Assembly (NCBI GenBank): GCA_026988035.1
Contig: JALSLY010000046.1
Coordinates: 1 to 53,448, forward strand
Length of the DNA stretch: 53,448 nucleotides
Direction of reading: 5' to 3'
Source: Thermotogae bacterium
GTDB taxonomy: Bacteria; Thermotogota; Thermotogae; Mesoaciditogales; Mesoaciditogaceae
Below are positions 5,192-8,578 of this stretch, piece by piece. Below the pieces are notes generated by a model. That model saw nothing but the letters and a program-made list of their open reading frames with translations. It had not been told where the DNA came from and ran no database searches. How positions within the stretch are numbered: position 1 is the stretch's first letter; the number at the start of each line of letters is the position of its first letter. The position numbers and the translations under genes are program-made.

Positions 5192-7039
5192 TCATTTTGA
5201 TAAATTGTAAAAGATAAGGTCTTTATCACGAAACGGATTATAATTTGCAGGGTATAAGCCCTTTAACCAATCTTTATAGACAAGCTGACGTGACGGTTGA
5301 ATGAGCCAAATCATCACAGCTTGATTGTAAACTTTCATGCTGATTTCCTTGTAAATCTTTTGAGCTTCGTTAGTATTTGTAGCTGCAACAGCTGCATTAA
5401 TAAGAGGATCGAAATCTTTTCGAGCCAATGCACGGAAATTATGGCCAAGCGCTAACCCGTAAACGCTATGTGAAGAAAGATAACCGTACACACGATTATA
5501 AGAGCTGGTGCCAAACCAATCCAAGGCTATCATTGGAATTTCGTTGCCAAGAAATGAATCTACAAGAGAAGCCCAGAGCGTTGGTACTGGAATGATGTTA
5601 AATTTAGGGTTTACCCGTTTTGCATAAGTTTTCAATATCTCGCACGCTTGTCTCATAGTTGGATCCGTGGAGTTATAAATGATTGCAAATTTAAATCCTT
5701 TTTCCCACACTCTACCACCGTACGCTTTTTTGAAATATTCAGCAGCTTTTGCGAGATCTTGATGGTAAATGGGAATACTTGGATCGTAGCCTATAAGTCC
5801 TTTAGATACTGGACTATTTGGTTCTATTCCAAGACCATTCCATACTTCTTTTATGTATACTTGATGTGGGAAAAGATATTCAAACCCTTTTCTTACGTTT
5901 AAGTTTGAGAAAAAATCAGGCGGTATTCCATTGCCATCTAATTTTCCAGAGTAGATGTATTTGCTGTGTGGGCTAACACTAAAAGCAAATGAGATTTGAT
6001 ATTCGGCAAGTTCTGGGATATTTTTTGAGATTTTTATTCCATTGATGTTTCTAACTTGTCCAATAAATTGTGGAGGAACTGATATTATATCGGCATTTCC
6101 ACGTATCAAATCTAATTTTCTGGTTGTGAATTCTGGCACGGTTTTTATAATCGCATATTCTATCTTTGCAGGACCAGCCCAATATTTATTAAATCTTTTC
6201 ATTATGACTTCTCTTCCTCGAATCCATTTGTATAGTTTAAAAGGTCCCGTACCATTTGTAATAGAGTAAAGAGGATCTTTTTGACGAGTTGGATTGTGAT
6301 AAAGCCACCATGTGTTGACTGTACCAGGCCACGCTCCGTGTGCAACTGCCCACTTTTTGTCTATGATCATTGCTACAGAATCAATAATGGAGCTAAAAAA
6401 TGGAGAATATGGGTGAGGTAGGTGAATTACAACGTCATTTCCTTTTATTTGAAAATCTTTTGCCAAGAGATTGAAGGTATCAATAAGTGCTTTTTTGCAT
6501 CTATCATTCCTTGGAAGTTTCGTATCGGTTGCGAAGAGCTCACTCCATGATTTCACTCCTGCGAGTTTCACACTCCATTGCGATATGTTGCTGACGTAAG
6601 AACCATTTATTTTTGGGAGCAGCGGTTCTGTCAATTCATGAGAATCTCCCCCGGCCATTCCAACTACGACGTCTCTTTCAAGAGAATACACAACATCTTG
6701 AGGAGTTAGCAAATCTCCATTTTGAAAATGGACTCCTTGCCTTATATGAAAAATGTACGTCCGACCGTTATCAAGAATGGTTTTGTCTTTGACAGAAGGA
6801 ACATTAGTTGAAAGCACGGGTGTGTATTCTGTTAAAGATGTGCCCTTAAGCTGAATAAGATTTTCGTATATATTGCTCAGAACTTCAAAGGACGCTGTAT
6901 CTATAACCATTGCTGGATCAAGAGTTTCCGCAGCTCGCTCTTGTTCATAAACAACAGTGTTCGGATGAGAAATGGATGCGAACACGAATACAGCCCACAT
7001 CACTGACAACGACACTGAAAAGAAGAACTTAAACTTCAT
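5192..7039 (-). CDS. Family 5 extracellular solute-binding protein (oligopeptide/dipeptide type)
   Basis: DppA/OppA-like proteins bind peptides or oligosaccharides and deliver them to an ABC permease. Start at 7039 (MKFKFFFSVSL) is chosen because GGAGGTGATTTT sits directly before it; an in-frame extension to 7075 would overlap the previous stop. The 615-residue protein begins with a signal peptide (about 1-22), with no lipobox Cys. Family 5 features include LDPAMVIDTASFEVLSNIYE near the N-terminus and YIFHIRQGVHFQNGDLLTPQ. It follows the dipeptidase gene by 32 bases, and no permease or ATPase genes are adjacent, so it must use a transporter encoded elsewhere. Peptides are the inferred ligand, from the dipeptidase neighbour. 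Confidence 0.88.
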   Translation of the reverse strand: MKFKFFFSVSLSVMWAVFVFASISHPNTVVYEQERAAETLDPAMVIDTASFEVLSNIYENLIQLKGTSLTEYTPVLSTNVPSVKDKTILDNGRTYIFHIRQGVHFQNGDLLTPQDVVYSLERDVVVGMAGGDSHELTEPLLPKINGSYVSNISQWSVKLAGVKSWSELFATDTKLPRNDRCKKALIDTFNLLAKDFQIKGNDVVIHLPHPYSPFFSSIIDSVAMIIDKKWAVAHGAWPGTVNTWWLYHNPTRQKDPLYSITNGTGPFKLYKWIRGREVIMKRFNKYWAGPAKIEYAIIKTVPEFTTRKLDLIRGNADIISVPPQFIGQVRNINGIKISKNIPELAEYQISFAFSVSPHSKYIYSGKLDGNGIPPDFFSNLNVRKGFEYLFPHQVYIKEVWNGLGIEPNSPVSKGLIGYDPSIPIYHQDLAKAAEYFKKAYGGRVWEKGFKFAIIYNSTDPTMRQACEILKTYAKRVNPKFNIIPVPTLWASLVDSFLGNEIPMIALDWFGTSSYNRVYGYLSSHSVYGLALGHNFRALARKDFDPLINAAVAATNTNEAQKIYKEISMKVYNQAVMIWLIQPSRQLVYKDWLKGLYPANYNPFRDKDLIFYNLSK

Positions 7040-7071
7040 AAAATCACCTCCAAAGATTATCGTGAAGAAAT

Positions 7072-8274
7072 TCAAATAAACTTGTAAACCTTTCCGGATT
7101 TCATAACAAACTTTACATTTTTCAAAAGGGTTATATCTTCAAGCGGATTTCCCTCAACTGCTATCATGTCCGCTTCTTTTTCAGGTTCAAGAGTTCCTAT
7201 TTTGCTATCCATACCGAGAAGCTCTGCACCCCATTTTGTGGTTGCCATTATCGCATCTACTGGTTTTACACCTGCGTTTACCATCAATTCAAGTTCTTGA
7301 GCGTTTTCTCCGTGCTTGTTAAAGGGTGTGGCGGCATCCGTACCCATGGCAATTTTTACGCCGGCTTTATATGCCCGAACAAAACTGCTAATATGTTGGT
7401 CCATTATCTCCTCCGTTTTTCTGACAGCGTAGTCTGGTATTCCTGCTTCTTTCCCATACTTTTTAATGTTGAATACAGCAGAAAGAGTGGCTACCAAAAA
7501 CACACCTTTTTCTTTCATCATTTGTACAGCTTCATCATCCAAAAATATGCCATGTTCAATTGAATCGATTCCCGCTCTGATGGCGTTCTTTATTCCTTCT
7601 GTACCTTGAGCGTGAGCCGCAGCCTTTTTCCCAGCTTTGTGCGCCTCTTCTATAGCAACTCTCATTTCATCTTCATTGAATTGTGGCGAACCTGGTTCGT
7701 CTCCTTCAGACATAACCCCACCCGTTGCCATCAATTTGACAAAATCGGCCCCCATCTTAAGTTGGTAACGTGCCGCTTTTCTCAATTCATCAACACCGTC
7801 GGCAATGACACCAAATCCTGAATAAGTTATTCCTGGTGCCAACCACATATCTCCATGCCCACCAGTCATTGAAATAGCTTGTCCAGAAACTCTCATCCTG
7901 GGACCATTGAGCATACCTTCTTCAATGGCTTTCTTTAGAGCTACGTCAAGAAATCCCCTATCTCCCATCACTCTTATAGTTGTAAAACCAGCCAAGAGAT
8001 CATTTTTCGCATTCACGTACGCTTTCAATGTTGCTGTGGGGAGTAAGTCTTTTAACATGGCAATTTCCATATTTGGCTCTCCGTTTCCACTCAAATGTAC
8101 ATGAGAATCTATCAATCCTGGAAGCACGGTGTATCCTTTCATATCAATAGTTTCAGCGTTAATCGATGCGTTTTTAGTTATTTCCTTTATTTTTGTTCCA
8201 TCCACTATTACACTTTCATCTTCTAAAAAGTTGCCGTTAGCGTCTATCAAATTCAGATTTTTGAGTACTATCAT
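7072..8274 (-). CDS. Metal-dependent amidohydrolase, probable Xaa-Pro/Xaa-Arg-type dipeptidase
   Basis: A 400-residue member of the amidohydrolase superfamily, closest in motifs to subfamily A (imidazolonepropionase-like; includes binuclear Zn prolidases). Visible metal and active-site elements are HVH at 58-60, GGHGD at 138-142, K180 in FVKLMATGG (candidate carboxylated Lys), H221 in AAHAQG, H241 in IEHG and D313 in GTDAAT. ATG at 8274 is used because AAGGGGTGAG precedes it; a longer in-frame extension lacks a binding site. It is first in a unit with the oligopeptide-binding protein, suggesting peptide uptake and hydrolysis. Upstream lies the Ile/Val/Leu-codon leader and attenuator (8353-8578). 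Substrate is inferred; other amidase substrates remain possible. Confidence 0.85.
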   Translation of the reverse strand: MIVLKNLNLIDANGNFLEDESVIVDGTKIKEITKNASINAETIDMKGYTVLPGLIDSHVHLSGNGEPNMEIAMLKDLLPTATLKAYVNAKNDLLAGFTTIRVMGDRGFLDVALKKAIEEGMLNGPRMRVSGQAISMTGGHGDMWLAPGITYSGFGVIADGVDELRKAARYQLKMGADFVKLMATGGVMSEGDEPGSPQFNEDEMRVAIEEAHKAGKKAAAHAQGTEGIKNAIRAGIDSIEHGIFLDDEAVQMMKEKGVFLVATLSAVFNIKKYGKEAGIPDYAVRKTEEIMDQHISSFVRAYKAGVKIAMGTDAATPFNKHGENAQELELMVNAGVKPVDAIMATTKWGAELLGMDSKIGTLEPEKEADMIAVEGNPLEDITLLKNVKFVMKSGKVYKFI

Positions 8275-8338: not shown

Positions 8339-8352
8339 AATTCAATTGATAT

Positions 8353-8441
8353 AAAAAAAGCCACATCTATTAAAGATGTGGCTGGTGGATTCACTTCGAT
8401 TTAAAAGCGTACGCTCAAATCCCCGCTCCTCCACCAGCGGG
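8353..8441 (-). promoter_or_regulatory. Transcription attenuator with terminator and antiterminator arms
   Basis: Minus-strand elements in order. Hairpin one is CCCGCT (8436-8441) with AGCGGG (8422-8427), just after the branched-chain codons of the leader peptide. A competing antiterminator pairs GCTGGTGGA (8430-8438) with TCCACCAGC (8381-8389). An intrinsic terminator pairs AGCCACATCT (8374-8383) with AGATGTGGCT (8359-8368), then a T-run to 8353. The antiterminator shares three bases with the terminator stem. An extra stem, GATTT..AGCG/CGCT..AAATC, sits inside the antiterminator loop. The arrangement fits ribosome-stalling control; no binding data exist. Confidence 0.72.
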
Positions 8442-8510
8442 CAAAATAAGTACTACATAAATTATTTTCTGTTCAATTCCAAAACTCGGCAGAACATATC
8501 TTTTAGTCAT
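8415..8510 (-). CDS. 31-residue leader peptide, branched-chain amino acid (ilv-like) type
   Basis: Begins MTKRYVLPSFGIEQ, continues KIIYVVLIL and ends PAGGGAGI. The eight codons ATA ATT TAT GTA GTA CTT ATT TTG encode I-I-Y-V-V-L-I-L, so seven of eight are Ile, Val or Leu. They stop right before a G+C-rich hairpin and then a terminator. This matches the architecture of ilv leader peptides of enterobacteria, which also have an Ile/Val run followed by Pro and Gly/Ala residues. A strong ribosome binding site, AAGGAAGG, lies 6 bases before ATG. The peptide itself need have no function. The unusual point is that a dipeptidase and an oligopeptide-binding protein follow, not ilv or leu genes. Confidence 0.75.
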   Translation of the reverse strand: MTKRYVLPSFGIEQKIIYVVLILPAGGGAGI

Positions 8511-8548
8511 TTTTTTCCTTCCTTTTTGATAAAAAGAATTTTGCAGTT

Positions 8549-8578
8549 ATCTTATCATTTTACTCTTTGTTGTGTCAA
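8549..8578 (-). promoter_or_regulatory. Promoter of the leader peptide/dipeptidase transcript
   Basis: Minus strand TTGACA (8573-8578), 18-base spacer, TAAGAT (8549-8554). The predicted start site would lie about 30 bases before the leader peptide ATG at 8510. Confidence 0.65.

Follow-up and report, generated by a model that had tools for sequence, protein, structure and literature searches.

What governs the expression of a dipeptidase gene and its neighboring peptide-binding-protein gene in a member of the Mesoaciditogaceae, and which nutrient does the short reading frame in front of them respond to? Both genes lie on the minus strand of the analyzed stretch of 53,448 nucleotides (the window). 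The first gene of the unit (7072–8274) encodes a dipeptidase/carboxypeptidase of the amidohydrolase superfamily, which resembles Xaa-Pro dipeptidases, scores 402.8 bits against NF051886 (under the cut-off of 500) and has 3mtw (Cc2672) and 3be7 as structural relatives. The second (5192–7042) encodes a periplasmic oligopeptide/dipeptide-binding protein of the SBP_bac_5 type. The pair matches the dipeptidase and oligopeptide-binding genes named in the original prediction, which took the region ahead of them for a branched-chain amino acid attenuator without giving its strand. Classical leader-peptide attenuation is best documented in biosynthetic operons of Proteobacteria and Actinobacteria. The evidence presented here makes it highly probable that the element is a ribosome-mediated attenuator through which branched-chain amino acids govern a two-gene unit for peptide scavenging.

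The whole leader element lies on the minus strand. Its promoter (8549–8578) consists of TTGACA (8578–8573), a spacer of 18 bases with TG one base short of its end, and TAAGAT (8554–8549). The sequence then reads as a ribosome-binding site, GGAAGG (8517–8522), ahead of a leader peptide gene of 31 codons (8415–8510), whose translation, MTKRYVLPSFGIEQKIIYVVLILPAGGGAGI with its stop, has homologous leader peptides in four relatives. Eight consecutive sensor codons (8442–8465), ATA ATT TAT GTA GTA CTT ATT TTG, encode IIYVVLIL, where all residues except the tyrosine are Ile, Val or Leu (7/8). Comparable runs occur by chance in about 0.5% of 31-residue segments (30/5480, from ten long open reading frames of the window); a stronger argument than this figure is the conservation of the run in four other genomes. 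The run is followed by a pause-type hairpin, CCCGCT-GGTGGAGG-AGCGGG (8422–8441), which folds with −10.5 kcal/mol (shuffle z −2.7) and shows a compensatory pair in relatives. A competing, antiterminator-like helix of 9 bp joins its 5′ arm GCTGGTGGA (8430–8438) to its 3′ arm TCCACCAGC (8381–8389), with 8438–8430 facing 8389–8381. The last three bases of TCCACCAGC are also the first three of the stem of an intrinsic terminator, AGCCACATC/GATGTGGCT plus a T-run (8352–8383, or 8383–8359 in a narrower delimitation), which was recognized from its sequence and a compensatory change in relatives and sits between the leader frame and the first structural gene. The segment from hairpin to terminator has a shuffle z of −5.3, and 0/200 shuffles were equally stable. 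Promoter, leader frame with its ribosome-binding site, branched-chain codon run, hairpin, competing GCTGGTGGA/TCCACCAGC pairing and terminator had all been proposed earlier, and each was recovered, including the three-base overlap between antiterminator and terminator. At gathering score, the Rfam 15 covariance models, leader families included, found only tRNAs in the window, and a search of 14 related loci gave zero matches.

The named relatives of the source genome are Mesoaciditoga sp. and Athalassotoga saccharophila. In four more genomes of the family (G002, G004, G005, and G007) the dipeptidase gene adjoins an orthologous SBP_bac_5 gene located directly 3′ of it, with identities to the source genes of 77–86% for the dipeptidase and about 76–79% for the binding protein. 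A leader is present at every orthologous unit found in this two-gene arrangement (4/4 relatives), encoding the peptides MTEKCVLLDLGTEQKIIHVVLILPAGG, MIERHVSFGFEFEQKIIFVVLIMPAGGGAGI, and, in two genomes, MVEKYVEKKISQEVVYIVLILPAGGLAGV. The Athalassotoga dipeptidase orthologs lie inside a larger opp operon and have no leader. All four relatives' leaders stand behind TTGACA-18-TAnnAT with an upstream TG, purine-rich ribosome-binding sites occupy the corresponding place, and promoter, sensor run, hairpin, competing helix and terminator are kept throughout (4/4). Loss of the Ile/Val/Leu run in relatives had been set beforehand as a sign against the attenuator, and the run is retained in all four relatives with the gene pair. 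Among the substitutions in Ile/Val/Leu codons, 7/8 again yield Ile, Val or Leu (P about 0.025 against random changes, from few sequences), and the tyrosine position drifts (Y/H/F/Y). The covariation analysis that had been suggested as a check reveals compensatory changes in both the hairpin, where one pair appears as C-G, U-A or G-U, and the base of the terminator stem, where A-U is replaced by G-C in two relatives. The competing helix is preserved in 5/5 branched-chain leaders, a small set of related sequences two of which are nearly identical.

This arrangement suggests how the element may operate. While charged Ile, Val and Leu tRNAs are plentiful, the leading ribosome would pass IIYVVLIL and reach GCTGGTGGA, which would first be covered by the ribosome and later held in the CCCGCT/AGCGGG hairpin, so that the complete terminator would form and transcription would end ahead of the dipeptidase gene. 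If one of the three amino acids were scarce, the ribosome would stall early in the run, within its first six codons (I I Y V V L), and leave GCTGGTGGA free to pair with TCCACCAGC; the terminator would then lose its three foot base pairs and more polymerases would pass into the dipeptidase gene. Shortage of Ile, Val or Leu thus probably switches on peptide scavenging, and peptides may serve as a branched-chain source for an organism that apparently cannot make these amino acids.

Ribosome positions were modeled by masked folding at equilibrium, with an assumed footprint from 18 bases upstream to 12 bases downstream of the start of the A-site codon; the results cover the elements other than the G006 dapF element. 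The competing helix forms when the A site holds any of the codons I, I, Y, V, V and L; from the next Ile codon of the run onward the three shared pairs are blocked, and once the Pro codon is reached the ribosome blocks the entire helix, leaving a complete terminator. In the best stalled state of the source leader, the terminator foot is open in about 40–50% of the molecules at equilibrium, while the corresponding values reach up to 92% in G002 and about 7% in G004. The untranslated source-genome RNA also forms the competing helix in an equilibrium fold. Since the competing helix removes only three terminator base pairs, control may be partial, and the caution voiced on this point in the original prediction was justified by the modest opening upon stalling. 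A related element in front of the lysC operon of the source genome behaves more distinctly: its helix is absent when the masked ribosome stands upstream, present exactly on Lys-Lys-Gln-Val and absent later. The predicted fold switch by ribosome position is sharper for the lysC leader and partial for the branched-chain leader.

The lysC element belongs to a larger set. A DNA search of the source genome for a second copy returned the element itself only, and the paralogs became visible only with a structural model. A covariance model trained solely on the five branched-chain leaders (R1) and run over 103 Thermotogota genomes identified 17 further elements in Mesoaciditogaceae. A second model (R2), built from all 22 family elements, returned exactly those 22 at 65–101 bits, with the next match at 32 bits, and this gap closes the family set. 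Across the 22 elements, 97% of the cells of the competing helix are paired, as opposed to at most 51% when slid, and the helix shows two-sided changes; its exclusivity with the terminator covers three base pairs only. The paralogs have CCCGGTGGA/TCCACCGGG as competing helix and GGGCCACATC/GATGTGGCCC as terminator. GCT/AGC of the dipeptidase leaders thus corresponds to CCC/GGG, and the three shared bases co-vary in three places: the 5′ arm of the competing helix, the segment common to both structures, and the 3′ arm of the terminator.

What changes between these elements is the coding content. In the stretch of 11 codons that leads up to the conserved GG-coding segment, Ile, Val and Leu number 6–7 in the five dipeptidase leaders and 1–3 in the other 17. 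A leader with NKKQVKYSPGG precedes a complete lysC-dapB-dapA-dapD-aminotransferase-lysA operon in the source genome, where the Lys-codon element (L155, NKKQVKY) with the same scaffold lies at G000:C4:12350-12466 on the minus strand, and likewise in G002. NKKYVK leaders stand before dapF-dap operons, and leaders with (N)KKHHVKY or a variant precede an ABC transporter with a binding protein that most resembles Lys/Arg/ornithine ones (TIGR01096, below cut-off). An NRKH(I/D)KY leader precedes an APC-type transporter and an NERR(H/D)HR leader an SBP_bac_5 protein. It appears reasonably likely that Mesoaciditogaceae possess one duplicated, modular attenuator scaffold whose cassette of sensor codons has been swapped from operon to operon, and that the branched-chain version moved to peptide scavenging in a lineage lacking branched-chain biosynthesis, turning a biosynthetic-type attenuator into a starvation sensor. 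The constant parts would then be the GGTGGA/TCCACC competing helix and the GCCACATC terminator.

Beyond the family, other Thermotogota gave weaker model matches of about 30–41 bits, some of which may be read as classical attenuators; here the names of the downstream genes were read from N-terminal sequence rather than from profile searches. HHH/HHHH leaders are located ahead of genes reading as hisZ-like, RR-R leaders ahead of argG- and argJ-like genes, and a His/Arg leader ahead of amino-acid binding proteins. An NNNNNP leader (L207, G004:C25:30793-30879) with five Asn codons (NNNNNPLDIGRWG) precedes an AsnA-like gene. The Lys codons before lysine operons and the distant His and Arg codons before his and arg genes provide the codon-to-operon logic with internal positive controls. 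Taken with the conserved run and the compensatory changes, these codon-matched homologs constitute comparative support for the proposed attenuator.

Several further leader-like sequences were encountered. In a different Thermotogota genome, a scaffold-like element of 31 bits (L206, G012:C5) with the leader end NRRIKEPVGVFGE lies before a dipeptide-type ABC permease gene and possibly marks another attenuated peptide transporter. Three leaders ending NNQPEPK... (L073, L057, and L061, in the f7 g10 genomes) carry a scaffold-like terminator before a citrate synthase-like gene and perhaps represent an attenuator for glutamate/glutamine supply. In L198 (G074:C10), a run of N, either an assembly gap or a masked stretch, lies beside a repeated stretch in a his leader region. 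Weak matches such as L060, L063, and L065 were rejected as chance matches or plain terminators. The window itself holds a likely trp attenuator (43423–43262, minus strand) before a trp gene cluster, with tandem Trp codons in the leader MKTFFYIFSIKQLNLKNNGWWYRARC and its stop (43423–43343), followed by a GC-rich hairpin, T6 and a second strong terminator; this leader was not among the matches of the R2 search.

Could the conserved frame matter for its product rather than for its translation? IIYVVLIL is hydrophobic and conserved, as would be expected of a small functional peptide, perhaps a membrane-associated one, and an intrinsic terminator located in a 5′ region may act constitutively, in which case this terminator might simply set a fixed basal level downstream. 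This combination is nevertheless very unlikely, since homologs with the same scaffold encode very different, basic peptides (KHHVKYPPGG), the frame ends vary among leaders, that of G005 stopping after PAGG, and the competing helix covaries, which a fixed terminator would not need. The end of the frame raises a different thought, namely that the leader acts through peptide-specific arrest at its proline codon(s) (PPGG or PAGG), as in polyproline stalling, instead of through a shortage of charged tRNA. Pro-Pro-Gly stalling that requires EF-P is known, and Pro-Pro-Gly is coded in many paralogs. The dipeptidase leaders, however, encode just one Pro, with Ala after it, some paralogs have LPGG alone, and RNA pairing already accounts for the CCC/GGT bases. 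A ribosome halted at Pro would moreover cover the competing arm in the masked folds and leave the terminator in place, and such an arrest is hardly to be expected.

A narrower form of the preferred explanation holds that only one amino acid, e.g., Leu or Ile, is truly sensed, the remaining codons of the run being there incidentally. In favor of such a restriction, Ile and Val replace each other among species (ATA-GTA, ATT-GTT, and GTA-ATA), whereas CTT and one GTA of the run are invariant. The position within the run outweighs any single residue, however, because the first six codons all permit the competing helix, and multivalent ilv leaders are known from enterobacteria. Sensing of one amino acid is thus improbable, if far from absurd, and sensing of the branched-chain group as a whole is preferred.

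The enterobacterial leaders of ilvGMEDA, ilvBN and leu likewise combine a short branched-chain-rich leader peptide with a hairpin, a competing helix and an intrinsic terminator, and share the multivalent sensing of Ile, Val and Leu. The Mesoaciditogaceae leader is predicted to work like such a multivalent ilv-type attenuator and has the structural features tested for ribosome-mediated attenuation. In contrast to the ilv and leu leaders, it would control a dipeptidase and a peptide-binding protein rather than biosynthesis, and its competing arm consists of the 5′ arm of the pause hairpin together with the loop, instead of the 3′ arm, and overlaps the terminator by three bases only; the choice of this arm also departs from the trp/his scheme. 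Its different operon and the lack of an Rfam match place the leader outside the enterobacterial ilv leader family. The His and Arg leaders of other Thermotogota, found with the same covariance models and carrying sensor codons that match their operons, show much weaker sequence similarity to the Mesoaciditogaceae scaffold, a resemblance rather than established common descent. In Firmicutes, T-box and CodY likewise tie amino-acid shortage to uptake. Both modes of sensing differ from the one proposed for the Mesoaciditogaceae leader: uncharged tRNA is bound directly by the T-box, and CodY acts as a DNA-binding protein. A survey that included Fusobacteria/Thermotogae genomes found zero T-boxes in them (PMC2494555). 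The literature searched contained no description of attenuators in Mesoaciditogaceae or of this scaffold, and no prior description of the His/Arg leader attenuators of other Thermotogota.

Why a branched-chain sensor should control peptide scavenging becomes understandable from the physiology of the family. Neither ilvC (PF01450, 10/10 family genomes) nor ilvD (PF00920, 7/7 family genomes searched) was found, whereas both are present in 14/14 control genomes, including Thermotoga maritima. The family therefore apparently cannot make Ile and Val and should need both from outside; Leu, which derives from the Ile/Val pathway, would be required as well. This agrees with the earlier proposal that the leader turns on peptide uptake and hydrolysis instead of synthesis, and in such a lineage it makes sense for a scavenging unit to respond to branched-chain amino acids. 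A search of the family for BrnQ-type transporters gave no match. The family does have LIV-type binding proteins, so that free branched-chain amino acids may be imported too, and none of the seven LIV-type binding protein genes inspected has a branched-chain leader. The closest solved relatives of the dipeptidase include Arg/Lys carboxypeptidases, which was counted against the preferred explanation. That a branched-chain shortage should control the hydrolysis and uptake of peptides is coherent, though another supply route is conceivable.

What appears new is the modular scaffold together with the predicted role in scavenging by an apparent auxotroph. A deep-branching thermophilic phylum is thereby predicted to carry a set of leader-peptide attenuators, and one of them seems to be devoted to scavenging where the sensed amino acids apparently cannot be made. 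Its sensor codons predict branched-chain amino acids as what the dipeptidase/transporter unit provides, a prediction not available from sequence similarity alone, and a common scaffold with exchangeable codons would make the evolution of attenuator specificity directly traceable.
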